From positions 1,960,420-2,024,419 of the forward strand of contig NZ_KI783301.1 of assembly GCF_000510645.1 (NCBI RefSeq): a stretch of 64,000 nt of DNA. The letters are read 5' to 3'. Positions within the stretch are counted from its first letter, which is position 1, and each line of letters opens with the position of its first letter. A program made the position numbers and the translations under genes. Origin of the DNA: Thermicanus aegyptius DSM 12793 (GTDB taxonomy: Bacteria; Bacillota; Bacilli; Thermicanales; Thermicanaceae). The notes beneath the pieces are model-generated. The model was not told where the DNA came from and did not search any database. It worked only from the letters and a program-made list of their open reading frames with translations. Positions 2,176-49,776 of the stretch are shown in pieces.

Positions 2176-2176
2176 A

Positions 2177-24560: not shown

Positions 24561-24577
24561 TACCCCCACATAAAGAT

Positions 24578-25485: not shown

Positions 25486-25552
25486 TTCCAACACCCTTTC
25501 TGGCTTGATATGTTACTTTACCGTACTCTTCGCAAAAAAGTATAGTCCCAAT

Positions 25553-26857: not shown

Positions 26858-29800
26858 TTAACCCCGAGATTCAGTATCTAATCTTGATTTACTTCTCAAT
26901 AACTTCGCCTTTTTATCATGTTCAGCCACTTTTTCAGCTAAACTACTAAAACGCAAATCATCCTTTTTGATACGTCTCTCAATCCGCTCACGTTGACGAG
27001 CAGACATAAATGGATTCTCCGCTAATTTCGCTCTCTCACGATCTGCACTTTCAGCCGCTTTCAAAGCAGAATGCTCTCTCCACTTAGAGATCCTGTCATT
27101 AATTCCATATTTGAGAGAGTTTGCCGTATCACGCGCACCCATTTTTACATTATCTACAGAAGTCTTTAAGCTCTCACTAACATATCTTCTAAGACCATCT
27201 TTGGAACGAATATATCCCATCGTGCTTTTTACGCTTCCACCAAACTCCGAAACAGAGTCTCTTACATCACGATACTTATTCCTTAACCCATACTTGAAAT
27301 CAACTACACGTTCACCAATAGAACGCTTTTGTATTGAAGAAAAAGGTTTGCTCTCATTATAAACAGGTTTTGAAGCCAAAGCATCGATATCCTCTTGCCC
27401 GAAACCACCGGAAGATTTAGAAGGTTTCGTAGGTCGAGATTTGAAACCTCCTCCTGGACCTCCTGAACTACCTGCTCCACTCGAACTACCTGAACTACCC
27501 ACAGTAGAAGAACTAGATACCCCTCCAGTACCTAGATTCTCTACTGCGTCCAACATCTGATTAAACTTACCTCTCTTATAACCAAATTTTGCGAGTCCAA
27601 ACGCACCGTTACCTAAGGTTCCTAATACCCTTCCACTCATTTGCTTTAACATTGCTCCTGCACTTGTTAGCAAAGCCCATGAACTTACAAAAGTGGTACT
27701 CAAATGAGCCTTAAAGGAATCAAGTAAAAGCTTGACAATTCTCCAAAGAACATATAGGTAAACCCCATCTACTATAAGCATTAACGACATCATTATTGTC
27801 GGATCAGTCAACCCTAAACTTGGAACCCTTCCTCCAACATAGGCTGTCTGACCTTCCCCCATGAACAACGAAATTACAAAAGCAAAAATCGTGCTTGCTA
27901 CCATAAACAATATCGATGGAAGCCCTAGATTCTTCAAAATAACACTTACTATCTTAGGTGGTGGGGATAATACACACGATACCACAATAACAAAGCTAAG
28001 TAATAACAACAGAAGTAATACCACAACCTTAAACGCTGGTATCACATAAACCGCCATTATATCATCAGCAAGTAACACCAAACCTGTAAAGAAAGACGTC
28101 TTATCCAAAATACGCACATACAAATCCTTATCCGCCATCAAAGGCTCCCCAGTTGCATTGAGCAAAAGCAGGCGCATGAAAGCATCATAGTTGAAATTCT
28201 TCAACTCGAAATTTTGCGGATAGAGAATTGAACTCTCACCCAAAAACTTATACTCCGAAAATTCCCTATTAAAATTAAATGTAGCTGCCATAGCCGCTGC
28301 CGTTACCAAGACCTCATCATCAAAATCTCGATAATTTGTTAAATAAAGAAGATCCTTATAGGTAGACTCCAAAGTAGCTTGAATTCTTCTCTCAACATCA
28401 GTCAAATCTCCATAGTTATAACTCTTAGCTATCATATCCGCAGGGGAAAAAATCATAGAACGACCCAAAAGCTCATAAGCACCGGGATTTAACGTATCAT
28501 CCAGATATACCTTTTTACCCGCAATTTCAATCTCCTCCGAGACTGAATCTAAACCATATAACTGATCCACCCAAGGAGCATACAGATTCCAAACATTCTT
28601 AAGCGTTTGTTTCTTCTTCTGTTGAAACTGGAAATCCGAAGATTGCCCAAGAGAAGCACTATTATTTGCATTATCAAAATCAAACCCCTGAACATCCGCC
28701 CCATAACGAGTTGTCCATCCATCAACATACTCATTACCTTGATGTAAATACGGTATGACATACTTAAACAAACCTTCTAAATCCAAAAAATCTCTAAGCT
28801 TACCATCTACTCTTGGATCACCACTATTTTCTACCTTAAAAACCTCTCTCTTCAACAAAGCCGACTTAAAGTCAGGTACTCCCGATACCCCTGAAGAGTA
28901 CCGCATCTTAAAGACATTATAGAAGTAATAAAATGGGCTCTCTGTAGATAAAACATACGCCTTATAAAAGGGATTACTCAAATCACCTGAAATACCGCTT
29001 ACAGTTGGATCTAACGTAAACTCACTATTAAAGATTGCCTTTGTAACGTTCTCATTCCCTAAAGCCCAAAATCTGTATCTACTAAGCTTATCATCAAAGA
29101 CCCCTGAGAACGAATAAGGAAACACTGAGGCTCGAGTTATTAACTCCTTTTGCTCATCACTGTAAGGCACTAACCCCTCGGGATTATTGAATAGCATAAA
29201 ACGATAGCTTGGCAATCCTAATACCTTTTTAGAATGAGTTGAAATACTAGAAGATACCGTACTGAGTGAAATTACACTCTCATCAAATGCTTCCAAAGAT
29301 TCATAAGAAGTTCTTGCTTCCTCCGCTATCGCATTATACGGTCTATAAAGATAAGTAGCCAAAGGATCATTATAGACATACTCCTGTTGATTTAAGAAAG
29401 AATTAAACAACCAACGGAATATTGTCAAATTAGAAGTCAAACTCGAAGTCGGACTTCCTTTAGTGAACAAACTATCAAATACCCCATCACGCTTGGGAGC
29501 CATCCATTTGACCCTAACACCTACATCTGTCGTATAAACATTTTCCAAACTCATAGCATTTTTGGCAATAATATAGTTCAATTCATCTCCACTGCTTTGA
29601 GCATTCAACAAAGTCTCAAAAGACTGCTGATGCTGAGTTATAGCCCAATAATCAAATCTCGAAGAATAGATCCTATCTCCAAATGAATTCGAAATATTTA
29701 TAACATTACCTACAAGGAATTGAGGAAGAACTAGAATGAAAGCCATTAAGATCAGAATTAAAACGCCTTCTCTCAAAGACCTTATATGAGATATAAGCAT

Positions 29801-32389
29801 CAAAATGACCATGATGAGAATAAGAAGATAGAAGAATAAATAAACATACATGTAATCATCCAACAGCCATGAAGTCAACGGTATATCATGTAAACTTGGA
29901 GAATTAATATAACCCACAATCGAAGCATAGGAGTTATTACCCCCTGCACTTACACTTAGGAAATTACCAACCCATGATCCTGTGATTGCTCTATGAGTTT
30001 GTATGATCCAACTGTCTTGGGTTGCTTTTACCAATTTATCACGGTAATTACTCGGTCCATCTGCTAATAACCCGTAAACCTTCTTGACAATGTCTTTCTG
30101 CATCTCTTCCAGTGTCTTCTCTTCAGATGCAACTACACCCGTAGAGCCATTCAAGGCTTCATTCAAATTAAAACTGCCTCCTAAATTGTTAATAGCCATA
30201 TAAGGAAGCAAAGGATTCGAAAAAGGTTCAGTTTTCCAGACATCTCCGTCTTTACGGATGTTCAATAACTGTACCATATACCCCCAATAGATACCCGGGT
30301 AGTTATTGACTCCATTTACCACAGATGTCTTAACAGTATATTCACCTAATGCACCTGAGACTTTATCACCTGCATACAGTTTGTCACTATCAATTTGTGA
30401 AGCAAAAGCACTATTCATCCCAAAAATTCTGTAAACCATCGCACTGTAAAATAAAGTGGAAATGGCATTTTGTCCATGTTCACCAACCGTCTTGCCATTA
30501 TCGTCATAACCGATGATTTTTCCGCCATTACCTGCACTAAACATACCTGTGCCTTCGAACTCAAAATAACCGCTGGTAGGGAAGCCCTTTGTGAACTTCT
30601 TCCAAAAGCTACTCTCTCGAATTGCCGATGATATATAAGCTAGACGATTATCAAATTCCAATAGTCCGAAACCAGCCGGAGCAACCTTGGTAGCTTTAAA
30701 AAAAGGAAAACCTGACTCTAAAGTGTTCAGATTGACCGATGTGGAAGAAGGTAAAATATTGTATACAAAGTTATGCTCATCAAACTTTAAGAGCTTCATC
30801 GCCTTGTTAATGACTTCTGGATTACCTGTTCCGAAATTTCCCGAATCAAGGAAGCTTTTCAATGCTTGAAACTCATCTGAAGTGGGATCAATGTCTTTGC
30901 TTAACGTATGATTTCTCAAATAATTAATTAAAAACTCAGTACCTTCTTGTGCCCCTTTACTGCTCTCTTCAAAGTAGCGCTTTAAGAAGCGATTAAACGG
31001 TGAAGAAAAGTAGGAGTTGTTATAAAAATGGAAGTTTCCATCAACCTCTTTAGAAAACAATTTTTGTCGTTTAATCAAATCATCATAATTGTCATCATTC
31101 CAATTTCCTTCATCTAAACCACTCGCCCCGTTAATGACATCAAAGTAATACATGTCATCTGCTAACTCAGATAAAGGGAAAATACTTCCATTAAATAGAT
31201 ATTCAAATAAGGTAGCTTTCTGTTCGACAGTTAATGATGATTCATCTTCAAAGTATTTCTTGCCATCAGTAAACTTACTGGCATCAATCGTCAATATGAT
31301 CATTGAATTACTATCCCCAGAAGTGGACATGGTGTTCTCTGAAAGAAAACTCTTCACGTCTTCATAAGGGTTAGATAAAAGAGATTTACTTAATTCGATA
31401 ATGACATCAGTAATCCCAATAGAAGCATTTGAGGAAGGGGATTGTAACCCAAAAATATTCAACATGTTCTTAGTATTCATAATTGCTGCACTTGTCGTTC
31501 CTGTCGTAAAGTAGTCCTTGATATTGTAATATGGGGTCATAAAATGCCTGTTAGCTAGAAAATCCTCAGTAATCTTCACGATACCCCCCATGACAAAAAC
31601 ATTGGCAACTGGAAACTTACCTCCATTCGTGGTTTTAGAAAATACAATTGGATTTAACGCGGCAGGAAGTATTAATACGTACTCTTCAACCGAAACGTTA
31701 TCGTATGCACCCCAAATATTACCTAACCCATCAATATACAAAGAATGAAAAGCTCTAAGCCCTTTCTCCTTATCTAAAATGAGTTCTGGAGCGAAGGAAA
31801 ACAAGACTTGCATCGATGCTCGTGTGGCGTTATCATTTAAATCCATTACGACCCTATCTGGAGATGAAATATTCCCATAGATCTTTCTATCCTCATCAAC
31901 ACCTGCAAGCTTATTATATAAATCCGTCCCTGACATCACCTTTGAATCTTCCGATGGGAGAGAAGCATACAAACTAAAGGAAGATCTTGACGTTTTCAAT
32001 TCCTCAGTGATGGCTTTATACAGCTTATCGTTTATGGCAATGATCTGCTTATAGTTACCTGAAGAACCAAAAAACTTCGTGCTAATTTTCTTAGGTAAGG
32101 TATCTTCCTTATCTTCTGAAGGATCAACCAGATCTTTCAGTTTTGTCTTCCCTGGTATAAAGAAATTAGATAGAAAGACACCGTAAACCATAAAGTCATC
32201 TCTTGAGACTCGCTCAACGTCTATTTCAGTCTGTTCCTTCCGGAAGAACTCTATCATCGAACTGGTCATTGAATTGACTGAGTTGCCTGATTCAACTGCA
32301 TGCACTTCTGGAGAAGGCACTACTGTTAAAAATATTAATAACATGAGCAGACCAATGATCATGCACTTTGTCCACTTTATTCGTTTCAT
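26858..32389 (-). CDS. Giant membrane protein, TrbL/VirB6-like architecture (tentative)
   Basis: An 1843-residue protein. It has a signal peptide or first helix (1-30, ending VHAVESG), a large extracellular region (about 30-840), two or three membrane helices (about 845-905), another extracellular region (about 905-1445), a second cluster of about five helices (1448-1575) and a 265-residue basic inner tail. A Ser/Gly linker (GSSGSSSGAGSSGGPGGG) lies in the tail. Such a layout recalls oversized TrbL/VirB6-like proteins of conjugative elements, but no VirB4, relaxase or coupling protein is in the window, so this is only a guess. AGAGGGG precedes the ATG. The gene is flanked by duplicated terminators. 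Confidence 0.75.
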   Translation of the reverse strand: MKRIKWTKCMIIGLLMLLIFLTVVPSPEVHAVESGNSVNSMTSSMIEFFRKEQTEIDVERVSRDDFMVYGVFLSNFFIPGKTKLKDLVDPSEDKEDTLPKKISTKFFGSSGNYKQIIAINDKLYKAITEELKTSRSSFSLYASLPSEDSKVMSGTDLYNKLAGVDEDRKIYGNISSPDRVVMDLNDNATRASMQVLFSFAPELILDKEKGLRAFHSLYIDGLGNIWGAYDNVSVEEYVLILPAALNPIVFSKTTNGGKFPVANVFVMGGIVKITEDFLANRHFMTPYYNIKDYFTTGTTSAAIMNTKNMLNIFGLQSPSSNASIGITDVIIELSKSLLSNPYEDVKSFLSENTMSTSGDSNSMIILTIDASKFTDGKKYFEDESSLTVEQKATLFEYLFNGSIFPLSELADDMYYFDVINGASGLDEGNWNDDNYDDLIKRQKLFSKEVDGNFHFYNNSYFSSPFNRFLKRYFEESSKGAQEGTEFLINYLRNHTLSKDIDPTSDEFQALKSFLDSGNFGTGNPEVINKAMKLLKFDEHNFVYNILPSSTSVNLNTLESGFPFFKATKVAPAGFGLLEFDNRLAYISSAIRESSFWKKFTKGFPTSGYFEFEGTGMFSAGNGGKIIGYDDNGKTVGEHGQNAISTLFYSAMVYRIFGMNSAFASQIDSDKLYAGDKVSGALGEYTVKTSVVNGVNNYPGIYWGYMVQLLNIRKDGDVWKTEPFSNPLLPYMAINNLGGSFNLNEALNGSTGVVASEEKTLEEMQKDIVKKVYGLLADGPSNYRDKLVKATQDSWIIQTHRAITGSWVGNFLSVSAGGNNSYASIVGYINSPSLHDIPLTSWLLDDYMYVYLFFYLLILIMVILMLISHIRSLREGVLILILMAFILVLPQFLVGNVINISNSFGDRIYSSRFDYWAITQHQQSFETLLNAQSSGDELNYIIAKNAMSLENVYTTDVGVRVKWMAPKRDGVFDSLFTKGSPTSSLTSNLTIFRWLFNSFLNQQEYVYNDPLATYLYRPYNAIAEEARTSYESLEAFDESVISLSTVSSSISTHSKKVLGLPSYRFMLFNNPEGLVPYSDEQKELITRASVFPYSFSGVFDDKLSRYRFWALGNENVTKAIFNSEFTLDPTVSGISGDLSNPFYKAYVLSTESPFYYFYNVFKMRYSSGVSGVPDFKSALLKREVFKVENSGDPRVDGKLRDFLDLEGLFKYVIPYLHQGNEYVDGWTTRYGADVQGFDFDNANNSASLGQSSDFQFQQKKKQTLKNVWNLYAPWVDQLYGLDSVSEEIEIAGKKVYLDDTLNPGAYELLGRSMIFSPADMIAKSYNYGDLTDVERRIQATLESTYKDLLYLTNYRDFDDEVLVTAAAMAATFNFNREFSEYKFLGESSILYPQNFELKNFNYDAFMRLLLLNATGEPLMADKDLYVRILDKTSFFTGLVLLADDIMAVYVIPAFKVVVLLLLLLLSFVIVVSCVLSPPPKIVSVILKNLGLPSILFMVASTIFAFVISLFMGEGQTAYVGGRVPSLGLTDPTIMMSLMLIVDGVYLYVLWRIVKLLLDSFKAHLSTTFVSSWALLTSAGAMLKQMSGRVLGTLGNGAFGLAKFGYKRGKFNQMLDAVENLGTGGVSSSSTVGSSGSSSGAGSSGGPGGGFKSRPTKPSKSSGGFGQEDIDALASKPVYNESKPFSSIQKRSIGERVVDFKYGLRNKYRDVRDSVSEFGGSVKSTMGYIRSKDGLRRYVSESLKTSVDNVKMGARDTANSLKYGINDRISKWREHSALKAAESADRERAKLAENPFMSARQRERIERRIKKDDLRFSSLAEKVAEHDKKAKLLRSKSRLDTESRG

Positions 32390-32431
32390 TTTACCAACCC
32401 CTCTGAGTGATTCAGAAACAGTTATAGATTC

Positions 32432-32833
32432 TCAGTAACCATTTTTTCTTCTCTGTTGCTCCAATTTCTCATTTGCCCATGCCGCCATTTGTTCACATTT
32501 ATCAGACCAAGAGTCTAATAACTCATTCAAGTAATCAATAATTCTAACTACACACTGTTGATATCTAGTCAATTCTTCGAATCTCATAACCCCTGATTTC
32601 TTTTGCCACCAAGTTAGTTCATTACTTGTTTTCAAAGTACCGAACTTAGTCTGATCATTGCTTGGTTTCAAAGCTTCGTACTCAGTCTGATCATTACTTG
32701 ATTTAAAAGCATCGAACTTAAACTGATCATTACATAATTTCAAATCTTCGAACTCAGTCAGATCATTAGATGTATCATCTTGTTCATAGTTTACAATAAT
32801 CGTCACAAACACTTCGACTTTCTCTTTAACCAC
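32432..32833 (-). CDS. Small protein with 12-residue repeats
   Basis: 133 residues from a GTG at 32833 behind GGAGGGGTGAGG. Residues about 20-75 are tandem 12-residue units of the form (D/E)Q-T-x-(F/Y)-x-x-L-K-x-S-N, encoded by 36-bp DNA repeats. A helical segment with WWQKKSG follows. It precedes the giant membrane protein by 42 bases and is probably cotranscribed. The repeats could be a helical spacer or a binding module. Family not recognised. Confidence 0.7.
   Translation of the reverse strand: MVKEKVEVFVTIIVNYEQDDTSNDLTEFEDLKLCNDQFKFDAFKSSNDQTEYEALKPSNDQTKFGTLKTSNELTWWQKKSGVMRFEELTRYQQCVVRIIDYLNELLDSWSDKCEQMAAWANEKLEQQRRKNGY
32620..32770 (-). repeat. 36-bp tandem repeats inside the 32432 gene
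   Basis: Four to five imperfect 36-bp units, each containing a TGATCATT(A/G)C segment, spaced regularly and kept in frame, giving 12-residue units. Confidence 0.75.
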
Positions 32834-33019
32834 TCATCCTCACCCCTCCTCAAAATTTATGACCTTTTACGTAACCTGAATGCGTGAATACCAGACTAAT
32901 TCTTTTTGATACTTATAAATTCGATCCGCAAAAATGTCCAAAACTTAAATTGATATATAAAAATACATCAAGAACTAAAAGTGCCTTTTACTGAAAGTCG
33001 AAAATTTCCAAAAAGAAAG

Positions 33020-33056
33020 CCGCCCTAAATAAGGCGGTTAACCAACAAAATAATGA
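33020..33056 (-). terminator. Terminator-like repeat, right copy of the 37-bp duplicate
   Basis: Identical over 37 bp to 26705-26741, including the CCGCC/GGCGG hairpin and the AACCAACAAAATAATGA flank. Here the leftward T-run is interrupted by C, so termination may be weaker. Together the copies bracket the 26858-32833 unit. Confidence 0.75.
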
Positions 33057-33370
33057 CGTTTCACTTGCGATTGGAGTTAGGTCAACCGCAAGTGAAACGA
33101 ATATAAAGGAGGGAGTAAAAAAGCAAGGGAGGAACAGCTTGCTTTTTACTCACACCTTATAAAATTTCTTAGTCATAAACTCAAAAAGTTAAAAAATATC
33201 CCCTGAACAAAAATTGTTACAGCAAATTGAAATCCGGTCACCCAAAAAAGACAAAGTGCCTTTACCCCCATTAAGGAAAAGCACTTTGCTGAAAACAATT
33301 TGCATTATCGAAAATTCGATACTTTAATGACAAGTCCTTAATTTTTAACAGAAACCGATTCATACGATTG

Positions 33371-33439
33371 TTACTGATGTGACCTAAACACCTGATAAGT
33401 ACAAAATCCTAATAAAAATGACATGAATAGACTTCGCAC
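33371..33439 (-). CDS. Very small hydrophobic frame, 22 aa (tentative)
   Basis: GTG start with TTAGGAG ten bases upstream. The product would be MRSLFMSFLLGFCTYQVFRS plus two residues, a possible single membrane helix. It follows another tiny frame by 17 bases. Coding is unproven. Confidence 0.25.
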   Translation of the reverse strand: MRSLFMSFLLGFCTYQVFRSHQ

Positions 33440-33456
33440 TTGATTAAAACTCCTAA

Positions 33457-33525
33457 TCAAAAATAATAGATTGAAAATTTCGGAACATCTTTAGAAGGTG
33501 AGTAAAAATCAATTTTTAAATTCAA
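33457..33525 (-). CDS. Very small frame, 22 aa (tentative)
   Basis: TTG start with a strong AGGAGGT seven bases upstream; an ATG touching that site opens only a 7-codon frame. The 22-residue product begins NLKIDFYSPSKDV. The ribosome site is unusually good for otherwise empty DNA, which is the main reason for listing it. Confidence 0.25.
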   Translation of the reverse strand: MNLKIDFYSPSKDVPKFSIYYF

Positions 33526-33582
33526 AACTCATACCTCCTGTGCCCTAATTGATTGAAACCTGATAGTTTTTACTCATAAAAA

Positions 33583-33616
33583 AATCCACTCTCGCGGATT
33601 TAACTGCAAGAGTGGA
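33583..33616 (-). terminator. Terminator downstream of the 33847-35777 gene cluster
   Basis: Read leftward, TCCACTCTtGC...GCgAGAGTGGA is followed by seven T. It lies 230 bases beyond the stop at 33847. A TATAAT sequence near 33660 just upstream could instead start a short RNA ending here. Confidence 0.65.
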
Positions 33617-33846
33617 CAAGAGAAGAGAAAGGATGACACCTTCCCAAAGGAAGATGTATTATAATACGATAACTTCTCTCTATTCGTATCGAACCATCAA
33701 GTATTTTCCAATCTTTTATGAAAAACTCCATTAGAAAATCACCATTCTGTTCATCCAAGTTAGCGTCGGTTTCGACAACTGTTTCACCCCAATCCGTTTT
33801 ACCAAGACTCTTGCATTATCAACCACTCTTACTCAACTTAGATCAT

Positions 33847-34557
33847 CTACTTAAAGTGCTGTAAACTTACTGCCACTTTTGTGATTAACCTTAGCTCCTG
33901 ACAGGGAACATCGTTCGGATTTAACTCACCAGAAATCATCTTCACAAAAGAGGTTGGGTCATAAACCCGAATTAACGCACTCACGGGACTACCACCATCT
34001 TTCATAAGAAATGGGGAAATATGCATGTTGACTAACATTAGCTGCCATCTGTTATCGGGTTCGATCAAACCGATAAACAGTCGCTTGTAAGGGTTACAAG
34101 ACTCCAAACTATACTGGACAATTCGAGTCGCCACCATCAGCAATAATTCTTCACTATAGTCAAACTCCCATTGAATAGTATACATTCCATAACAACCAAG
34201 AAAGTACGTTCCTTTGACCCATTTCATTTCCCGTACTTGATAAAGAGGAGATTTTAGGCTTGTAAGTATGGTCAGGCAACGAATTGGTGTCTCGGTAACT
34301 GAACTCGTAAAGTTGCTTGAATCGTGTGGAATCTTCTTGATCAATTCAATAAAATCATCATCAATAAAATGACGAAGTGAGCGATACGAAACAGAATACG
34401 CCAATCTAATAAAATAATCATCTCTATAAGGAAGAGAAGCTAATTGAAGCATTTGATCAGAAGTTAAAGACTCGAACAATACCCCATCAAGAAAATACAC
34501 CTCTTCAGGAGAAGGAAAACGGTATTTCAATAAATCGTTAATCCGCATCTGGCGCAT
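33847..34557 (-). CDS. Hypothetical protein, 236 aa, third gene of the iteron-side cluster
   Basis: Family not recognised. The ATG overlaps the end of the preceding gene by 20 bases; GGAGGATGAGG lies upstream inside that gene. The protein is soluble and mixed alpha/beta, with no Cys cluster. Segments such as YRFPSPEEVYFLDGVLFESL and EPDNRWQLMLVNMHISPFLM suggest beta-rich parts. It is translated with the two upstream genes as one leftward unit whose upstream DNA holds the iteron array. Confidence 0.75.
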   Translation of the reverse strand: MRQMRINDLLKYRFPSPEEVYFLDGVLFESLTSDQMLQLASLPYRDDYFIRLAYSVSYRSLRHFIDDDFIELIKKIPHDSSNFTSSVTETPIRCLTILTSLKSPLYQVREMKWVKGTYFLGCYGMYTIQWEFDYSEELLLMVATRIVQYSLESCNPYKRLFIGLIEPDNRWQLMLVNMHISPFLMKDGGSPVSALIRVYDPTSFVKMISGELNPNDVPCQELRLITKVAVSLQHFK

Positions 34558-35311
34558 TTACCTCATCCTCCTCATTCATATAAGGATTCTGATTTTCGAG
34601 CCATTTAAGCATATGGCTCACCTGTTGCTGGATGGTGCGTTGTTTTCCCGTTTCATTTTGGCTAAACTTACCGCTAAAGAAAAGTTTTAATGCCTCACGA
34701 TCCAAGGCTGATCCGTTACGACTGCTTATTAAAGAGAGAATATGAGCGATTTTTTCTGGATTACAAAACTGGGTGAGCAAAATTTCTGCAAAATGAGCAA
34801 ATACCCCAAGCCATGTTAACTCCTTCTCACAATCCCTAAGCTTATAAATTGAATTGTACTTAGGCGAAGGTAGAAAGCGCGAGAGTCCCGGTAAGAAGTA
34901 TCCGTATGCGTCTGGTTGATCCGTTTTTACTCGAAACATTTGGACAGCTTTATTGATGGCATCTACAGTTTTGGCTTGCATCACATTGTCTAACGGCTGC
35001 TCAATGATTCGTCTAACCTTATCTGAAGCATTTTTGACTGTTTGCTCTACAGCATTTATATTTTCAATCCCAAGTCGGGCTGCAGTTGTTCGACAATTCA
35101 AACCCGTCTTGAAGTATTCCTCAAGTCTCTTCTTCGTATCCTTATGTTTGATATAAGAAAGGGATTTTATATACCGAATCAATTCATCCAATGCATCCAA
35201 TCTACTCTTTTCCAACTCATACTGATCACTGTAAACATCTTCATTCAAACGACTGATTACATCTTGTCGAGCATCTCTTACTTTACGAAAGATATTGGGT
35301 TGGTGTGCCAT
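34538..35311 (-). CDS. HTH-containing hypothetical protein, 257 aa
   Basis: Mostly helical. Residues about 70-105 (CRTTAARLGIENINAVEQTV) look like a helix-turn-helix of the sigma/LuxR-like kind, so DNA binding is likely. A Glu/Asp-rich C-terminus follows. AAGGAGG precedes the ATG. It starts 16 bases after the 149-residue gene, which has a similar HTH-like stretch. The cluster lies directly downstream of a 42-bp iteron-like array, so a replication, copy-control or partition role is possible but is inference. I cannot assign a known Rep family. Confidence 0.7.
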   Translation of the reverse strand: MAHQPNIFRKVRDARQDVISRLNEDVYSDQYELEKSRLDALDELIRYIKSLSYIKHKDTKKRLEEYFKTGLNCRTTAARLGIENINAVEQTVKNASDKVRRIIEQPLDNVMQAKTVDAINKAVQMFRVKTDQPDAYGYFLPGLSRFLPSPKYNSIYKLRDCEKELTWLGVFAHFAEILLTQFCNPEKIAHILSLISSRNGSALDREALKLFFSGKFSQNETGKQRTIQQQVSHMLKWLENQNPYMNEEDEVNAPDAD

Positions 35312-35327
35312 TATGATACCCCCTCCT

Positions 35328-35777
35328 TTAATTCCGTGTGATAAAACGTCTTAATTGGACATTATCAAGAACATTTGCTTTATACCAATCGATAATCTCT
35401 TGAACCTCAGCAATGGAATTCGTCCGAATAAGTAGATTAATGATTCCAGTCTCCAAGACAGACGATGCCAACAAAGTCCGCAACTGATCCCTAACAAAAC
35501 GCATATGACCGATACTGCGAAAGCCTAGTTTTTCCGCTTCTTCACTGCTGCATCTGCCATCAGTCAAACAAATCATTACTAGAGCCTTCAACTTGGGCGA
35601 TTGATCCATGAGTGCCTTTAAAAATCCGGTAATCATCTTTATTACAGAGAGCTTTAGTAAATAGAGTTGGCGTTCATTGTCTGTCAGGTTCGATGAAGTC
35701 AACTTGGCACTAATCTGTGAAGAAACTTCAACTAACAAGTTGAAATCGGTCACAATCTGTGATCTCACATCAGTCAT
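35328..35777 (-). CDS. HTH-containing small protein, 149 aa
   Basis: Helical throughout. Residues about 80-115 (CSSEEAEKLGFRSIGHMRFV) resemble the HTH-like stretch of the next gene, so the two may be distant paralogues or partners. AAGGGAT precedes the ATG at 35777. It is the first gene after the non-coding region with the iteron array. No known family recognised. Confidence 0.7.
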   Translation of the reverse strand: MTDVRSQIVTDFNLLVEVSSQISAKLTSSNLTDNERQLYLLKLSVIKMITGFLKALMDQSPKLKALVMICLTDGRCSSEEAEKLGFRSIGHMRFVRDQLRTLLASSVLETGIINLLIRTNSIAEVQEIIDWYKANVLDNVQLRRFITRN

Positions 35778-37120
35778 GTCCCAACATCCCTTCTGGTGTT
35801 TTTCAAATGGATCTCCAATTTTGCTCGATCAAGTCCTCTGAAAACAACAAAACCAACACTTTACATGTTGAATCGACCCCCAACTTAGGGAAATAATCGT
35901 TTTTTGCCGTACTTTTAGGCTTGTGGAGGTTTAGATTTTCGTGAAATTCCTAGACGCATAAAGGGAAAACCGCCCAAGGGGGGATGAGCTGAATAATTTT
36001 ATACAAGTAGCCAACCCTCAGTAATATAAAATTACTCACTTTCAAACTGTCTAAATCGAACTAACATGCCCTTGAAAATAAAATTTATTGCTCGGGGAAA
36101 GTCGCAATCAAAAGCGGAGTGAAATATGACTAGATGTGACCAATCGAAGATAGGATTCTTGAGGAAGTAAGCAGAAAACAACACAATAAAGCGCATTTGT
36201 TCTTTGCTCCATGTAAAACACCTGAAAAATACTTGAACGAGATCTTAATCTCTGTTGATAGAAGGACTTCGTTTGTGGTAAATCGAGGAAACCGAGAAAA
36301 AGCAACATAAACGAAGGAACAACCATTTTTGAAGAAACATGCAATTCATACCCCAAATTGGAATGCAGTACTCAGCATGACCCATATTTGAAAACCAAAA
36401 TTTTATAAAACATTCCTTCAAAATGAAGCATTACTTGGTCAAAAATAAGACATAACAAAATCTTTTATAAAACTACTCCGCAATTTTATTAGAGAACTCA
36501 GTCTTTTTATAATCGAAGTCGTGCTAATTCTAAAAAGTATTAACATATTATAAATCCACTCATTTGTTGTTATAATGGTAATCTGAATCATTCTAAAATA
36601 CTCACACTTTTTCTAAAAGAAGTCTTTCTTTTTATAAAACCAGTCCTGATTTTTATACAGATACACATTTGTGAGCTAAAACCAGTCCTGATTTTTATAC
36701 AGATACACATTTGTGAGCTAAAACCAGTCCTGATATTTAAATAGATACTCATTGTCGAGCTAAAACCACTCCAGTTTGTAATAAAAATGAATTACCGCCC
36801 GATAATTTCTACTTATACGAATCAAAGGAAAAACTCCGATTAACATTTAAAGAGTTAATATAATTGTCCCCGCGCTGTTTGTTAACTCCGAAAAATCATG
36901 TAAGTTATAATCATTTAGAACTAATGATCGATTTCTAACCAGTTCTCGGTTTGTTTACTAATCAAATCTTGTTTTGCCTTTGAGTTAAAAACCGTAACCT
37001 TACAGCTTTTCATTTATATTTATAAAGCGCAGAATCAACTACCATGATCCTGCGCTTCAAATACTACTCAATTTTACCATTCGCCATATACCTTACCTCT
37101 ATTCTTTTGTTACTATTTAA
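35778..37120. other. AT-rich non-coding region with iteron array, possible replication origin or centromere
   Basis: 1.34 kb without a credible gene, strongly AT-rich. The right half carries the 42-bp-period array. A single leftward frame (36108-36356) has no ribosome site and is rejected. The genes of the 35777 unit read away from this region. The combination of AT-rich DNA, iterons and adjacent DNA-binding proteins is typical of plasmid origins or partition sites. No DnaA box was recognised with confidence. Confidence 0.5.
36405..36776 (+). repeat. Iteron-like array, 42-bp period
   Basis: The core TATAAAACCAGTCCTGAT begins near 36634, and three further starts follow at exactly 42 bp (AAAAC at 36636, 36678, 36720, 36762). 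The first two units are identical and the third and fourth are diverged. Degenerate cores continue upstream in nearly the same register (36469, 36511, 36552, 36595), with one more near 36407. Forty-two bp is four helical turns, so bound proteins would line up on one face. Confidence 0.85.
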
Positions 37121-37864
37121 CTAACTTACAATAGATTGACTCTCATTACCATAAATTTGTTGAATTATACTCACCACTAATCTTGAAAATTCCAACTTTT
37201 TTGCTTCAAGAATTGGTTTCATAGTAAGGTAGTGCTCAGTATTTTCTTCATCTGTACAAAGCTCTAAGTTTTCAGGACGATTATCATGCTTATTTAGATT
37301 CCGATGGTTTACGACTAAACTATGAGACTCTTCAACAGCATATATCGCCTCTTGTCCGAAATATAGAACTGCAATTAGCTGATGATCCTTTATAAAAATT
37401 CTGTCTGCTCTAAAACCATTTTTCCCCCATTCTATTCCATAACGATGTGACCTACTTAATCTTGAACTACTTTTCATCAGCCATTTTTTCGGAGTAGGAT
37501 AGAAGAACTCACCATCATACACAAGTTTGGTTTCACCCGTTATATAATCTCTTAAATAAATATGGTTATTTTGAATTACCAATTCGTACTTTTTATTATT
37601 GAAATAATAAACCCCTCCTGAATCAAAACAAACCAAAAGTGAATATTCATCGTAATAAGTGGTGTAAACCCTATTCATCAACCACGTCTTACGGCTTCTC
37701 ATTAAAGCAAGTGCACGTTGTTTTATCGTAAAGTCATTGTCGATTTCAATATCTGTACTCTTTTCATCCGAAACTGGAATCCATTCTTTACGCCAATGCT
37801 CTTTAACCTCCCAATCTTCTATACGGGGAAGTGTAATTGTATTAATAACATTTATGATATTCAT
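37121..37864 (-). CDS. HNH endonuclease-like protein
   Basis: About 247 residues from the ATG at 37864 (GAGGAG upstream). Near the C-terminus (about 180-215) the sequence LVVNHRNLNKHDNRPENLELCT matches the HNH_3 pattern of homing endonucleases: H, then N...H.N, then RPENLE. The N-terminal region is probably a DNA-binding or structural part and contains a beta-rich YEYSLLVCFDSGGVYYF stretch. It stands beside the iteron region and may act on its own DNA, as many free-standing HNH enzymes of mobile elements do. No intron was found around it. Confidence 0.75.
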   Translation of the reverse strand: MNIINVINTITLPRIEDWEVKEHWRKEWIPVSDEKSTDIEIDNDFTIKQRALALMRSRKTWLMNRVYTTYYDEYSLLVCFDSGGVYYFNNKKYELVIQNNHIYLRDYITGETKLVYDGEFFYPTPKKWLMKSSSRLSRSHRYGIEWGKNGFRADRIFIKDHQLIAVLYFGQEAIYAVEESHSLVVNHRNLNKHDNRPENLELCTDEENTEHYLTMKPILEAKKLEFSRLVVSIIQQIYGNESQSIVS

Positions 37865-37893
37865 AGGATAACACACTCCTCAGGATTTATTTT

Positions 37894-38586
37894 TCAAACC
37901 ACTCTCTTATCCCTCTCATCAACATCAACGATATACTTCCTCTGTCCTATCGTTTCATCCCCGGCTTCGTTTCGATCATCACCTCCTATGTCTGCCCTTA
38001 ATTCATAGTCTTCATCCAATATGTCCAGTGCATCCATTAACTTTCTGCTATTAAGGACTGTCTCAAACAGTTCTTCTTTTTGATATTTTTTAATCAGAAA
38101 GATAATCTGATTGATGTATCTCTTATACCCCGTGGTCAAGGCATTTCTTAGCAGTGTTCGAATGTTCTTACCATCAACAATTGCCACTTCTGATGCAAAT
38201 TCATTGAACTCAGCGATAATCATCGCCTTATCAAGTTGCTCAATTAAAAGATCCACTTCCGTTTTTTTGTTAAATCTTGAACCTTTACTAAAAGTCGATT
38301 CAATGATGCCTTTATATCCCTGTTCCCATTCATCATCATTAATAAAGTTAACCTCACGACTAAACTTTTGAAGGTTCGAATAGTGTTCGCATCTTACCGA
38401 ATAACCTTCTACATTGACATAATCACTGCTATCAAGTCTTCTTTCAAGAAAGGCAAGAATGACCTCGCTTTGCCATTCCTTACCCCGCAAAGACCGATTT
38501 TCCCGATTGTCACCAAGGGCAATCATTGATGCTTCAAATACTTCTTTATCAGTCTTATTGATAGAAAAGCTAATCACCGAACGCAT
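37894..38586 (-). CDS. Hypothetical helical protein, 230 aa
   Basis: Family not recognised. Begins MRSVISFSINKTDKEVFEAS and is helical in the middle (TEVDLLIEQLDKAMIIAEF; KRYINQIIFLIKKY), ending in a charged tail. AGGGGAAGGG precedes the ATG. It is 29 bases downstream of the recombinase-like gene and may be in one unit with it and the small gene at 39411. Confidence 0.7.
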   Translation of the reverse strand: MRSVISFSINKTDKEVFEASMIALGDNRENRSLRGKEWQSEVILAFLERRLDSSDYVNVEGYSVRCEHYSNLQKFSREVNFINDDEWEQGYKGIIESTFSKGSRFNKKTEVDLLIEQLDKAMIIAEFNEFASEVAIVDGKNIRTLLRNALTTGYKRYINQIIFLIKKYQKEELFETVLNSRKLMDALDILDEDYELRADIGGDDRNEAGDETIGQRKYIVDVDERDKRVV

Positions 38587-38615
38587 TCACCCTTCCCCTC
38601 TCTATAAAGCAGAAC

Positions 38616-39170
38616 TTAAACCTTTAATTCGAAAATCTTGACCAACTCGCGGAACTTATTGTAGCTGATCGACAATTTCTTTGCGGCTTCCGGTCCCGAT
38701 AATCCTTTTACTGATTTTGATCCATTAACATTCTTGGTGCGGTAGGCTTCATATACCTCCAGAAAATTTGGTGGATAAGGCTTGGAAGGTCGACCAGCTT
38801 TCATTTGTTTCAATTGTTGACCCTTAGCCTTGTCCTTTTGAAATTCTACAATCATAGAAAGTGTTTCATACCCTTGTGGCGTCAAGATACTCAAATCATT
38901 CGACTCAAGCATTACCAAAGCTACATCCATATCCCTCAAAGTGACTATAAATTTACGTAATTCGATAACATCATCTGCAACATCGCATAAATTACGAATT
39001 ACGACAGTATCCTGAAATTCAAGCTGCTCCAACATTGATTTCAAAGAATCACCATTCGTGAATCCGAACTCGTCCGTCAAGTCTATAAAAATTTTGTCCA
39101 CTTTGGCTTTGTTCTCAAATTCTTCAATTTCCTGTTTCCGTCTTACACGAAGATAACCAACTCTTGCCAT
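38616..39170 (-). CDS. Serine-recombinase-fold protein lacking the catalytic serine
   Basis: A 184-residue relative of the resolvase at 12388. The N-terminus MARVGYLRVRRKQE aligns with [14 protein letters not shown], so the catalytic Ser is Arg here. The block VVIRNLCDVADDVIELRKFI aligns with [19 protein letters not shown], but the conserved Asp-Arg and Arg-Ser are gone. The C-terminal AGRPSKPYPP and HTH (LSGPEAAKKLSISYNKFRELV) remain. It should therefore bind DNA without cutting and could be a regulator or an architectural protein. GTGAGG precedes the ATG. Confidence 0.8.
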   Translation of the reverse strand: MARVGYLRVRRKQEIEEFENKAKVDKIFIDLTDEFGFTNGDSLKSMLEQLEFQDTVVIRNLCDVADDVIELRKFIVTLRDMDVALVMLESNDLSILTPQGYETLSMIVEFQKDKAKGQQLKQMKAGRPSKPYPPNFLEVYEAYRTKNVNGSKSVKGLSGPEAAKKLSISYNKFRELVKIFELKV

Positions 39171-39186
39171 ATTCTCGACCTCACTT

Positions 39187-39411
39187 TTATTTCATGTTCA
39201 CCAGATATCTATTCGATTTCCGAAGGTTAAAACTAACCCCATTAATGATCAGATACCAGTCTCGATCCATCTCAATCCGGCAAGGAATGGCACTCTCGCC
39301 CAAGTAGATCTCGAAACATTCACCACAATGGAGTCCATAACTATCTCCATCTTGTCCAACACACCAGCGATCTGAATCTGGATCGTAGAACATCGGAACC
39401 TTTCTCTGCAC
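39187..39411 (-). CDS. Small protein, DUF5348-like
   Basis: About 74 residues; the GTG at 39411 is chosen because GGAGGT lies ten bases upstream. The sequence FYDPDSDRWCVGQDGDSYGL, HCGECFEIYLG, CRIEMDRDWYLI matches the pattern I remember for DUF5348, a small protein common in mobile elements of Bacillota (function unknown). Three Cys residues are present. It is 16 bases upstream of the Ser-less recombinase-like gene, so the two are probably cotranscribed. Confidence 0.65.
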   Translation of the reverse strand: MQRKVPMFYDPDSDRWCVGQDGDSYGLHCGECFEIYLGESAIPCRIEMDRDWYLIINGVSFNLRKSNRYLVNMK

Positions 39412-39478
39412 CGAACTGCTCACCTCCCTTCAAACCAACTTGCGTTCTTTAACAACAAAGTGCGTTCACTGTTGCAAA

Positions 39479-39661
39479 TCAACCAATGAGAAATTTGGTA
39501 ACAATCATAATAATGAAGAACCCAAATGCCAACACAGCTGAAACGCGTCCTTTAACAGTCTCACCTAAATCATCCATCGCAACGGTGAAGAAATGAAACC
39601 CAAGGAAAAAGCTCAGTAAACCCAAAAACATAATCAACAATTGCTCCATCATTTCAATCAT
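39479..39661 (-). CDS. Small membrane protein, about 60 aa
   Basis: Two hydrophobic segments (LLIMFLGLLSFFLGFHFFTV and VSAVLAFGFFIIMIVTKFLI) joined by a short polar loop with MDDLGETVKGR. The start is uncertain among three in-frame ATGs that follow AAAGG; 39661 gives the best spacing. Function unknown. Confidence 0.55.
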   Translation of the reverse strand: MIEMMEQLLIMFLGLLSFFLGFHFFTVAMDDLGETVKGRVSAVLAFGFFIIMIVTKFLIG

Positions 39662-41152
39662 TTCAATCATCCTTTCATCTCTCAATTTTTTACTTTTTTA
39701 TTATTTTTTACCTATTCCATTTCTATTACGAGTATAACTCTGATTTAACCACTAAGCAAGTAGTTTTTTAACTAATTTTATATTTTTTTTGACTAAACCA
39801 AAGAGCCGAACCCCCTTGATACGACTGGATTTTGGGCGACCGACCATCGACCGAGAAGTGATAACCGCACGTGACGAGCCTGAACGCCCCTATGAGCGAT
39901 TTTCAGAGGGCGGGTAATAGGAGGATAGCCATAAGCGGGGGCAGAGGGGGCAGAGGGCAAATATGGAGGGCAAAGCAAAAGGCGAACAAGAAGCGAACAT
40001 GGGCGACCCCCTAATGGAGGGGGCTGAGATACCATTTTATACCATCGCGGAAAAAAACGAGTTTAGCGTCTGACGAACATTCAAATATCGATTTGGTTTA
40101 AGTTAACTCTCGAAATTTTTATCATCTCAAGTTGATCAGAGTACCTTTTCCTTGTAGTTCGCAGATCTTACTCCACGAAATGGCATTTAACCCTCTGTCC
40201 ATACCTGCTTTCGCAACGACAGGTTGTGCAAAAATCATTTGTCATGGCAACCCCTCCATCAAGAAGTGTGCTTTTAGAACCTGACGTCGTTACTGTGTCC
40301 TGAACTATCGAATACCGTATTGGCGAAAACTGTGCTTTTACCATAGGTTTGCGACAACATGCTGTCAGTAAGATTCAGACTTGGCAGCTCATCTTTTTTC
40401 AATACGACCTATGTGGCTTTAACGACCTTTGAAGCGTTTTTATAAAACCATTTCTGGTCGTTCTAAAAATCTGCAAACCCCCATAAGCATTCCGAGTCCT
40501 CGACATTCCCTCAACCTGATTGAAGCAAACTGCCTTAGAAAGAGCATGTTCAAACCTTTCAAAATAGAGCAGATGTAAAACGAACAGCCGACTACGCATT
40601 GAGCCGCCATTCAAACGAACGGTATGAGCCACCTGTCTGCCGTTTTGTAACGCTTTTGAAGGCAGGATAGACCTATGACAGCCGAGGGGGTTGTAAGGGC
40701 GATTTTGGAGCCTTTGTGAAGGGCGTGGACGACCCCCGATATGGGGAGAAAAATCACCCTGACCTAATACGAAAAAATTCGGTTTACGAAAATGCGAATA
40801 ATAATAACCTCGTTGCAGTGATCCTTAACTCGCATTCTTCGACAAATATCAACAGTGCTCCGCAAGATCACTGACAATTTACCTCCGAATATGTTAATTA
40901 ACCCCGATTTCAAGACGAATTTGCGACAACATGCCGTCAGAATGAGTCCAAGTATACCGGCAGTAGTGTGCTTTTAGCACAGATTGTAGTTCCTGTTGTC
41001 CAACTGTCATCCTCAAAAGTGTGCTTTTAGCGATGCTTATTTAATCTGTCGATCAAGCTCTTATCAAAAGAAATCAACCCCAACTCGACAAAAACAGCCG
41101 AATTGGGATTGATACCTTTGGGTACAGATGACCGGCGCTCCTAAAATCAACC
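39662..41152. other. Repeat-rich non-coding block, 1.5 kb
   Basis: No gene with a ribosome site on either strand. It differs from the surroundings: purine/G-rich on the + strand at 39900-40030; C-run hairpins CGACCCCCTAATGGAGGGGG (40014-40023) and CGACCCCCGATATGGGG (about 40730-40746); four copies of GTGTGCTTTTA; and two copies of TTTGCGACAACATG followed by a GYCGTC/GCTGTC segment. It is a candidate for an origin of transfer, an origin of replication or a packaging/partition locus; nothing in it decides which. Confidence 0.5.
40266..41029 (+). repeat. Dispersed GTGTGCTTTTA and TTTGCGACAACATG motifs
   Basis: GTGTGCTTTTA occurs at 40266, 40966 and 41019, and as TGTGCTTTTA at 40331, all in one orientation. 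TTTGCGACAACATG starts at 40348 and 40920 and extends to 21 bases with one mismatch. At 40355-40368 the sequence GACAACATGCTGTC is nearly palindromic. The two groups sit about 570-700 bp apart, as if a composite unit was duplicated. Confidence 0.65.
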
Positions 41153-42175
41153 TTACCTTTCAGACTCAATCAGCGCATACATCTCGGGCGATAACTTGAA
41201 GTTGATGTAAATGTATTCATCTTGATGGTAACCACTCGCAGAAGATGAGACATGCTTGGATTTTAAGAACACTCTCTGCCATCTTTCAGGGTACTTCTCA
41301 ACCAAAACGTCATAAAGCTCACTTCTATAACCACAAATGATTAAATACGCCTCACAGTCCTTGATTAGTTCTCGAAATTTGATATGATCCCGCTTGTCCC
41401 AAGAATAGTCGTAATGCTTTTTAATCAAACATTCATCGGTGTCGTAAGGAACATCACAGAAAATGATCGTTCGCTTAGGATCATAACCGTTTTGTCTTGA
41501 TTCCACTTCCCTGATCAGTTTCCGGCAGTCCATCCGAAAGACTTTCACTCCCGATAGGATTGAGTTGAACTGATGAAGTTTAAGGACATCTTGATAATAC
41601 TTATCCCTCTTCTTTACGACAGTTAACCAATTGATGGACTTCAGGTTGGCGGCATAACTCATCTTGGCTAAGATATACATGTTTGCCGCGGCGGTCACAT
41701 AGTCGGAAGCTTCCTCAAACTTACCCAATCTGGCTAGTCGATCATCTGCCCATCGAGCTTTTTGAGCTGCCTTAAAAACATACTCGGTGTAATCCAAATA
41801 GGTTAATCGAAGAATCAATTTTCTCGTCATAGATTCATCCGTTAAGACGTGGAACAAGCTCGCCAAAGAGTAATCAACATCCGAATAGACCCTGCGCGTA
41901 AAAATCAATCTATCGGGATCAAGATTCAGTAAAACCCGACATGCCCCGCCTGTCGCTGTGATAAACGTATCAAGCCCGTATTCTCGACCAGCCCACTCGA
42001 TCAAGGGGACGAGTTGCTTGACAAGAGCGCGTTTGCCACCCATATAACTGATTATTGAAAGGATCGCTCCTCTAATCAACATATCCCAAGAAATCGGCTT
42101 GTTATTCGGGTTAAAAGGAGGGGCAACAATCCCCTCCAGACCCTCCTGACCCCCAATAAACATCGAATTACTCAT
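41153..42175 (-). CDS. D12-class adenine-specific DNA methyltransferase
   Basis: A 340-residue Dam/DpnM-type N6-adenine methyltransferase. The SAM-binding YMGGKR block is at about 43-48, followed by FITATGGACRVLLNL in place of the usual F-x-G-S/G-G. The block VYSDVDYSLASLFHVL corresponds to the conserved D/N-N-L-F region. The catalytic motif reads DVPY (240-243), not DPPY. The C-terminal YSWDKRDHIKFRELI also fits the family. AGGAGGAAGG precedes the ATG, which overlaps the upstream gene by 8 bases. It may protect the element against host or resident restriction. No cognate nuclease is adjacent. Confidence 0.88.
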   Translation of the reverse strand: MSNSMFIGGQEGLEGIVAPPFNPNNKPISWDMLIRGAILSIISYMGGKRALVKQLVPLIEWAGREYGLDTFITATGGACRVLLNLDPDRLIFTRRVYSDVDYSLASLFHVLTDESMTRKLILRLTYLDYTEYVFKAAQKARWADDRLARLGKFEEASDYVTAAANMYILAKMSYAANLKSINWLTVVKKRDKYYQDVLKLHQFNSILSGVKVFRMDCRKLIREVESRQNGYDPKRTIIFCDVPYDTDECLIKKHYDYSWDKRDHIKFRELIKDCEAYLIICGYRSELYDVLVEKYPERWQRVFLKSKHVSSSASGYHQDEYIYINFKLSPEMYALIESER

Positions 42176-43121
42176 TGCTCATACCTTCCTCCTTCATGTA
42201 CTCATTCCATGCTTCATACAACTTTTTGCTCTTTACAATATAAAACCGACCAGTTGCTCCTTGACTATTAAGATCCGCAATCTTCTCATTAAAACGACCA
42301 TACTCAGTCAGCTTAATCAAAAACCCTTCTTTTCTCCATGCCGCAAAAACCGAATTGAGAACCGCATTGTTTGCCTTAAGATCGAGTTCATCATCATCAG
42401 TATCATCAATATCATTAAAACCAGCAAAAAGCTTCAGCATAGTCTCTCGACTTACCCCTACTGCATGCTCACCAAACCTACGTTTCATGCGTAGAGTATC
42501 AAGCAAAACTGCGCTATGAAATTTCTTATCGTAATTTTTCAACGCTAATGAAGCAACGCACTCAGGTTCCGCAACCAAACTATTCTCCAACCTAATGAAC
42601 TGCGCGGCGGCTTCATTGCGATTTAAGCTGTTCGATAACAAAGCATTCAGTTCTTCTTCATCGATCTCGATGTACTCATCACGCTTCTTCATTTCAATGG
42701 CATAAGTGATAATGCTCTGAATAATCTCACGATTAATATCTTTTGAGATGGGCTTCAATTTATCCTCGATCTCTTTTTCGAGATGCGGATTGTCCGCCTC
42801 ATGGAGATAAAATGTATGTCCTTTCAGAAGAGAACCACCTTTGCCAAAAGGTTTGATGACCCCCACAAATACTCCGTTCGGATAGCCGTAAATCAAACTT
42901 ACACCGAAGAAAACTTCCACCTCAAAGAACTTCCCGAACACCTTCTTATAACGCTCAAGCTCTTTCTTTGTAGCAAATTCATATGCCGGACGCTTATACC
43001 TATCTTTCTGAGCCTGACTTACCGGGGACTTGTTGACAAATTCATGAGAATACATCGTAGCCAACTCATTTGGAGTCATTTCCGGTTGTTCCAAGGATTG
43101 TTCCTTTTTCGTATCTACCAT
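42168..43121 (-). CDS. Hypothetical protein, 317 aa, coupled to the methyltransferase
   Basis: Family not recognised. Soluble, acidic at the N-terminus, then helical stretches (FVNKSPVSQAQKDRYKR; EIEDKLKPISKDINREII) and a region with VEVFFGVSLIYGYPNGVFVGVIKPFGKGG. The C-terminal part (about 215-300) could be a winged-helix-like DNA-binding region (MLKLFAGFNDIDDTDDDELDL then helices). AAGGAGAAGG precedes the ATG. Its stop overlaps the methyltransferase start, so the pair is translationally coupled. Confidence 0.75.
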   Translation of the reverse strand: MVDTKKEQSLEQPEMTPNELATMYSHEFVNKSPVSQAQKDRYKRPAYEFATKKELERYKKVFGKFFEVEVFFGVSLIYGYPNGVFVGVIKPFGKGGSLLKGHTFYLHEADNPHLEKEIEDKLKPISKDINREIIQSIITYAIEMKKRDEYIEIDEEELNALLSNSLNRNEAAAQFIRLENSLVAEPECVASLALKNYDKKFHSAVLLDTLRMKRRFGEHAVGVSRETMLKLFAGFNDIDDTDDDELDLKANNAVLNSVFAAWRKEGFLIKLTEYGRFNEKIADLNSQGATGRFYIVKSKKLYEAWNEYMKEEGMSNE

Positions 43122-43527
43122 TTCGCCTTCTCCTTCCCAGAAATATTGGAATGTGTTGGAAGCGGATCAAGTCTCTGCGCAGAGTAACCCGTCCGATATC
43201 TGGGTTTAATCTCTTAATCCAGAAGGAAAAGCGTAAAAAATAAACCCCTTCAACTTTTCAAACAACCCTCTCAGACTACAATTCACCTGCTCAAACTGTC
43301 TGAAAGGGTACTTTTATTTCAAAACAAGCAATCTAAACTGAAACACCCATCGAAAATATCAATGAAAGCTTACGAACTATCCAACATGGCGCACTCAACT
43401 CCCATATGGAATTTTTGAGTTACGCCCAACCTAATTTCTGATCCATCAAATTTTTGTTTCAAATGCATTTTTTCATTGTCGAGCGAAAAATTTATGTTGT
43501 TGCCAAGTAACACGTCTTATGAAACTA

Positions 43528-43561
43528 AAAAAGAGCCTCGGACTTGGTTAGTCCTAGCTCT
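43528..43561 (-). terminator. Leftward terminator in the 43 kb spacer
   Basis: AGAGC..GGACT pairs with AGTCC..GCTCT, followed leftward by six T. There is no recognised gene immediately upstream, so it may end read-through or an unknown RNA. Confidence 0.6.
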
Positions 43562-43814
43562 GGGGACGGGAGTGGGAATTGTGGGATAAGTGGTCAGATG
43601 GGATGGGAGGGGAAGGATCTCAACAAATGGATAACCCCGATCAGGTACATACCCGTGTTTTACCTTTGTTTGAATTAACTCAACTAATCGGAATTGCAAT
43701 CGACTTTAAATACTAACGTTTTATCGTCAGCCCTCTTCATTAAGAAATAAATGATATGAAAATTCAGGTGCAAAAGTTGATTTTTATGTTCCTGCACCAC
43801 AGCTTGATTAAGCC

Positions 43815-43845
43815 ACAAAAAAGGTGCCGCTATTCACGACACCCA
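43815..43845 (-). terminator. Terminator of the 43860 gene (GGTG...CACC family)
   Basis: Read leftward, GGTGTCGTGaatagCGGCACC is followed by six T, 15 bases after the stop at 43860. It shares the GGTGTC/GGCACC core with other terminators of the element. Confidence 0.75.
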
Positions 43846-43859
43846 TCAATGAATTGCCT

Positions 43860-44198
43860 TTAATCTTCTTCTTCTGAAAATAAAACCCTCGATAGTCTTT
43901 GGTACTTCTTCACGATCCGATAGACTTTAGGATGAGGACTGTACATTTCAACCTGGAGTTCGCCAAATAATTCATGCATCCCGTAGATCGCAATTTCGAC
44001 AGGCTGATTCTTTTTGGTGAAGTACGCCTCGATCTCTGTAAACATTTGCTCGATTAACCTTAAGACAGGTTCGTCAAAGTTCCAAGGCATCGGATCAGTG
44101 AAGTAACCCTCCAGCTTTTCCTTATCGGTTAAACACGGGACAACCGGCTTTGACCAAGGAAAACGATTATGCAAATCGGCTTCAGTTATGCTGGACAT
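43860..44198 (-). CDS. Hypothetical protein, 112 aa
   Basis: Family not recognised. GCGAGGGG precedes the ATG at proper spacing. Soluble, acidic at the C-terminus (FSEEED), with a helical LIEQMFTEIEAYFTKKNQ segment and a beta-like VEIAIYGMHELFGELQVEMY. It is a single-gene unit with its own terminator, downstream of the huge surface protein gene but separated from it by another terminator. Confidence 0.7.
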   Translation of the reverse strand: MSSITEADLHNRFPWSKPVVPCLTDKEKLEGYFTDPMPWNFDEPVLRLIEQMFTEIEAYFTKKNQPVEIAIYGMHELFGELQVEMYSPHPKVYRIVKKYQRLSRVLFSEEED

Positions 44199-44272
44199 GA
44201 CAACACCCCTCGCAAAATAATAGAAAAATTGGTGTTGTAGTACTATACCGTAAATCGAAACATCATCGCAAG

Positions 44273-44306
44273 AAAAGAAGGTGCCGATTTTTTCGACACC
44301 TTCATT
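44273..44306 (-). terminator. Terminator of the huge surface protein gene (GGTG...CACC family)
   Basis: GAAGGTGtCGA...TCGgCACCTTC, followed leftward by TTTTCTT. Located about 60 bases after the stop at 44365. Confidence 0.75.
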
Positions 44307-44364
44307 TCAAGACTGCTATATCCAAATCAATGCCAAGCCTTTACAACCCCCGAACAGACAACCA

Positions 44365-49768: not shown

Positions 49769-49776
49769 TCACTATC

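Follow-up and report, generated by a model that had tools for sequence, protein, structure and literature searches.

An iteron-like array of repeats lies at 36403..36764 of the window, the stretch of 64,000 nucleotides analysed here (bases 1960420-2024419 of the single-contig, 3.66-Mb chromosome of Thermicanus aegyptius DSM 12793), on the strand (-) of the downstream genes for proteins of 149, 257 and 236 aa. About sixteen TTATAA-like cores follow one another at intervals of two helical turns inside an integrated element, and a like array occupies the same spot in two related elements, so that a protein docking site, serving copying, retention or control, is its probable role. The tentatively favoured explanation, which falls a little short of an even chance, is an iteron-like cis docking site for an element-encoded protein, a site that would most likely help the excised element to replicate or segregate.

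The repeat array and its helical phase

Autocorrelation of the array region peaked at 21, 42, 63, 84, 105, and 125, which together with the core positions gives a true period of 21 bp and about 16 units; the eight units in a 42-bp register proposed by the first-pass annotation were a double-length reading. Fifteen cores at 20-22 bp steps occupy the stretch from 36465 to 36764 (36465, 36486, 36507, 36528, 36548, 36570, 36591, 36611, 36632, 36653, 36675, 36695, 36717, 36737, and 36759), with an outlying core at 36403, and they read TTATAA, TTCTAA, TTATAC, TTATTA, GCTAAA and similar. The degenerate cores noticed earlier at 36469, 36511, 36552, and 36595 are present, and among the four unit starts that had been called exact, those at 36636-36677 and 36678-36719 are identical 42-mers, whereas the unit at 36720 is degenerate and that at 36762 keeps AAAACCA without the full unit.

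The array consists of a degenerate part (36463..36634, +), where the cores are phased with low unit-to-unit identity, and a recently duplicated 42-bp unit (2 x 21 bp) in 3.3 copies (36635..36772, +; 92% matches in TRF, and recovered by repeat search). In the copy-free part at 36390-36634, the summed autocorrelation at 21/42/63 was equalled by 0 of 2000 dinucleotide shuffles, and TTATAA was observed 5 times (shuffles averaged 0.42 and never exceeded 3), an approximately twelvefold excess that falls in phase. Fitting a phase to the cores gave an optimum of 10.47 bp, which is the B-DNA pitch, and a phase vector of 0.96; this fit is partly circular because the variant cores were chosen by eye in the 21-bp register, and the TTATAA-only shuffle test is free of this circularity. 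The 21-bp step and this phase provide the whole-turn spacing and the direct repeats of ~17-22 bp that characterize iteron origins. An inert tandem duplication would account for the three recent 42-bp copies at 36635-36772, yet it was already disfavoured and is scarcely credible, as core and phase persist in the non-duplicated parts and in the array of a Brevibacillus relative, where the spacers lack identity.

In agreement with the first description of the region as AT-rich and non-coding, the GC content is 32% per kb and no ORF of at least 80 aa covers the array; an Rfam search found no RNA family there. Unit orientation was assessed with a cross-species motif matrix, by which the flanks weakly favour the gene strand. 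Between the array and the 149-aa gene, which lies ~630-690 bp downstream, is an AT-rich spacer (35778..36402, no strand) defined by alignment with the relatives. This spacer is of comparable length in the window and the relatives (~430-690 bp), and its sequence is unconserved except for a TTTTGTTGTTTT block near the gene.

The integrated element and its relatives

The array region is part of an integrated element that has relatives in other genera, a context that the earlier reading had missed. The element is ~69 kb long and AT-rich, carries genes mostly on one strand, and extends from ~-17.5 kb to 52 kb relative to the window between flanks of ~50-56% GC; its in-window part (1..52100, no strand) was recognized from the GC step, the integrase, synteny, and a split maf gene. 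Its left end lies ~17.5 kb before the window, where a 617-aa large serine recombinase is encoded at window -17568..-15715, followed beyond the recombinase end by RadC and then MreB (assigned by position), with Maf at the opposite end. As read from the sequence, the 3' end of the host maf now lies cut off next to the recombinase and the Maf ORF at 51950-52732 carries a replacement end, a split gene which indicates that the ~69-kb element was inserted in maf. The detached 3' end maps to L009 ~2300-2470 (window ~-17700 to -17530), and within the right-hand Maf ORF a segment is duplicated (DKAGGYD ... DKAGAYG), as would be expected had two elements inserted successively at one codon. No exact-match att repeat longer than 11 bp was found at the element ends.

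Relatives of the 257-aa protein were found in three other genomes among 399 Bacilli, namely Geobacillus thermocatenulatus BGSC 93A1 (G246), Brevibacillus sp. S4Y-50-3Z (G392), and G148, and a wider phylum search for this family gave no further member. The array, the 230-aa gene, and the dead resolvase described below are all absent near the 257-like gene of G148, and the number of independent elements compared is three. The element of G. thermocatenulatus (~51 kb) has one end close to a tRNA-Ala gene and the other at a 594-aa serine recombinase. That of Brevibacillus starts in the tmRNA gene (ssrA); at its other end, near 52.2 kb, a piece of the tmRNA recurs beside a gene that looks, by sequence, like a tyrosine integrase. 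BLAST comparison revealed a common gene order of a large surface protein (the Brevibacillus contig ends before this position), 112-aa and 317-aa proteins, a D12 methyltransferase, the dead resolvase, a 230-aa protein, an HNH protein (not in Brevibacillus), the array, two tandem helical proteins, an amidoligase, and a gamma-glutamyl cyclotransferase. The integrases differ across the three elements (two diverged serine types and one apparent tyrosine type beside ssrA) while this core stays, which places the array in the common core rather than with integration.

In both relatives an array of TTTTATAA cores with whole-turn spacing occupies the corresponding position, upstream of the genes related to those for the 149/257-aa proteins. 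The array of G. thermocatenulatus comprises 14 TTATAA cores in ~335 bp with alternating spacings of 20 and 32 (a 52-bp unit, equal to five turns), and that of Brevibacillus comprises eight cores spaced by 31, 20, 32, 31, 31, 31, and 29. The Brevibacillus spacers are unrelated, demonstrating that core and phase were kept rather than copied. A strict pattern of three TTTATAA cores with 12-26-bp gaps, from which the array of the window has degenerated too far to be found, matched 20 times in G. thermocatenulatus, 9 times in Brevibacillus, and at most 3 times in any other of the 399 genomes. AT-rich TA-step cores within a horizontally acquired element might nucleate a host AT-binding protein (Rok/H-NS-like silencing) or merely represent phased bendable DNA, but this is highly improbable considering that the array sits at one fixed place beside the same genes, is dense only in these elements among the 399 genomes, and was not found in other AT-rich parts of the elements.

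Scans of IMG/VR yielded one contig whose array and element are near-identical to those of G. thermocatenulatus; a second match, L059, was rejected as a relative, being a phage that carries an ordinary resolvase. No relative of the queries tried was detected in plasmid and phage records, and therefore no free replicating form is known. A literature search for this element found nothing.

The element of the window also carries defence cargo at 1-5000 and 17595-18638, comprising type I restriction-modification genes and a KwaB-like gene, as well as genes for very large secreted or membrane proteins that match no family (1715 aa, 44365-49512; 1843 aa, 26858-32389). The >50% identity of the 1715-aa protein in the Geobacillus element suggests a core function. 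The pair of amidoligase and gamma-glutamyl cyclotransferase genes is found in all three elements (window 24997-26515; L012 6403-7947; L013 10871-12433).

Genes beside the array and candidate binders

Two proteins beside the array had been credited with HTH-like stretches, a description that applies to the 257-aa protein, where an HTH is likely, and not to the 149-aa protein, which matches no family. The latter (35328..35777, -) holds the position of the relatives' first paralogue (~240-260 aa) with marginal similarity and is a weak, positional paralogue, while the first post-array gene of the relatives is a true paralogue of their second gene (E 4e-14). The 257-aa protein (34538..35311, -), the query that led to the related elements, was modelled as all helical with a mean pLDDT of 78 from an alignment of nine sequences, and its likely HTH spans residues ~73-100. 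It gave a weak PHROG regulator match (E 0.0076), and fold searches with the model returned no significant structure match; it represents a new family, all helical and with a likely HTH. The overlapping gene for a 236-aa protein (33847..34557, -) has a homologue in G. thermocatenulatus (BLAST E 1e-11).

Upstream of the array lie an HNH endonuclease-like gene (37121..37876, -; Pfam HNH_3 1.6e-7), which is absent from the Brevibacillus element, and the gene for the 230-aa protein (37894..38586, -), which among the 399 Bacilli genomes occurs only in the three array-bearing elements. They are followed by a gene for a 184-aa serine-resolvase homologue (38616..39170, -) that aligns to invertase and resolvase structures and retains the HTH end without the catalytic serine, since YxRVS is replaced by YLRVR, YIRAK, or YARVL, with R, K, or L at the catalytic position. 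This dead resolvase is conserved beside the array in the three elements (window 38616-39170; L011 14124-14651; L013 5757-6284). Further along the core module are a D12-class adenine DNA methyltransferase (41153..42175, -; Pfam 6.8e-6), 58% identical in Brevibacillus, and its 317-aa partner (42168..43121, -), to which no family was assigned and whose predicted structure was too poor for use.

A platform on which the dead resolvase mediates synapsis, looping, or segregation without strand exchange is an improbable explanation that draws on the presence of the dead resolvase and the 230-aa gene just upstream of the array in all three elements and on the confinement of the 230-aa family to array carriers. 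Resolvase crossover sites have an AT-rich centre, which the TTATAA core recalls, and are inverted half-sites, ~28-34 bp long; the units of the window, by contrast, are direct and 20-21 bp. The array likewise resembles serine resolvase res sites in its AT-rich cores, its multiple phased sites, and the resolvase homologue nearby, and differs from them in the missing catalytic serine and in having many direct units instead of three inverted ones. No catalytically competent resolvase is encoded at the array, the intact-looking one being 24 kb away; this serine resolvase (12388..12975, -; Pfam 3.9e-36) is 88% identical in the Brevibacillus element, and a resolvase is common to all three elements.

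Possible function of the array

The phase, number, and fixed position of the cores and their persistence despite spacer divergence indicate cooperative protein binding. The array itself, its phase, position, and conservation, and its place in the element are observed directly; binding by a protein, the identity of the binder, and a role in replication or segregation are inferred. The approximately sixteen candidate sites on one helix face would be bound cooperatively by an element-encoded protein, leading to the formation of a nucleoprotein complex on the array, and the likeliest use of this complex would be plasmid-like maintenance of the excised circular element, through the start of replication and/or segregation. 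The likeliest binder would be the 257-aa family with its tandem neighbour, with the 230-aa protein and the catalytically dead resolvase as alternatives.

Maintenance of an excised form is supported by the integrase, which implies excision in principle, by the shared resolvase, which would suit a circular stage, and, in the window's element, by the presence of a D5_N/DUF5906 helicase-type gene. Counting against it, the scanned genes of the shared core include no recognisable initiator or partition NTPase, only scattered one-mismatch DnaA boxes without a cluster occur near the arrays, in a region that is AT-rich throughout, and G148 has a 257-like gene without the array. The small number of independent elements, the lack of plasmid or phage relatives, and the missing fold match of the 257-aa model also weigh against it. 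Profile searches of the adjacent proteins against Rep and partition families, which the first-pass annotation had suggested, gave no match in Pfam, PHROGs, NCBIfam, or PDB profiles, and no Rep initiator was found among the array-adjacent genes. Regarding the motor NTPase of ParABS, ParMRC, or TubZRC systems, the 149-, 257-, and 236-aa proteins matched no NTPase family. The scanned genes showed no similarity to Rep, ParA, ParM, TubZ, relaxase, or T4SS proteins, and Pfam found no relaxase or type IV secretion gene among the larger element ORFs scanned in the window, in the flank to its left, and in a portion of the element of G. thermocatenulatus. A D5_N/DUF5906 helicase-type gene lies in the window's element beside a transposase-like ORF (window -10978 to -9524; L009 9022-10476); its absence from the elements of G. 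thermocatenulatus and Brevibacillus rules it out as a common initiator. Because a known Rep or motor NTPase was sought and not found, membership in an iteron-origin or partition family is not claimed.

The main rival to a replication or segregation role is long-range gene control, in which the 149/257 proteins or the dead resolvase, bound to the array, would act as repressor or switch for the operon beginning ~600 bp away, or for the upstream genes, as a means of controlling element activation. The invariable location of the array upstream of the 149/257 operon, the likely HTH of the 257-aa protein with its weak regulator match, and the absence of a replication gene beside the array are consistent with such control. 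Nevertheless, the array stands 430-690 bp from the gene start and overlaps no recognisable promoter, the region contains no more promoter-like matches than shuffled sequence does, and sixteen sites are many for an operator, so that regulation is possible but rather unlikely.

Plasmid centromeres bound by small adaptors include parC/ParR, tubC/TubR, and staphylococcal pSK1 par. The array is like these in preceding an operon for small proteins predicted to bind DNA, and unlike them in that the operon contains no actin-, tubulin-, or ParA-type NTPase and its proteins match no adaptor family. Theta-plasmid iteron origins of the Rep_3 and RepA_N types share with the array direct, helix-phased repeats of ~20 bp, AT-rich surroundings, and a nearby gene for a likely DNA-binding protein; they typically have 2-7 units compared with ~16 here, where the array lies ~600 bp from the gene, next to proteins without Rep similarity and without a DnaA-box cluster. 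In known iterons, 17-22 bp in length, helical phase is required and a half turn of added spacing abolishes cooperative Rep binding (PMC4980987). A large serine integrase and an origin that contains repeats also occur in PLE, an integrative phage satellite of Vibrio cholerae (PMC7145576). PLE possesses an initiator of the RepA_N type, whereas none is seen in these 50-70 kb elements, for which no helper phage is known. The repeats noticed earlier were confirmed and the observation extended, and the accompanying interpretation is partly supported. Iteron-like suits phased direct repeats kept in relatives beside a family with a likely HTH; an origin or centromere is possible, with nearby genes that give no Rep or partition match and an operon without an NTPase. 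By sequence, the array is a variant of the phased iteron-like array, for which an origin or centromere is plausible.

The array probably marks the point from which a rare family of 50-70-kb integrative elements is controlled. These elements have a common core, different integrases, and defence genes, and no machinery for replication, partition, or transfer has been recognised that all of them share. An array that is conserved, phased, and diverging, and accompanied by new protein families, offers a direct handle on the persistence and movement of such elements. It is unlikely, though conceivable, that the array and its neighbours constitute a replication or segregation locus of a new type, driven by an undescribed family of all-helical DNA-binding proteins, perhaps together with a retired resolvase, within an undescribed family of Bacilli integrative elements without known transfer genes. 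In unrelated Bacilli contigs, perfect 21-25-bp repeats with TTTATAA cores were also observed (L039, G306:C7:8121; L043, G101:C2:15205; L028, G316:C73:7925), and these are possibly ordinary plasmid iterons.
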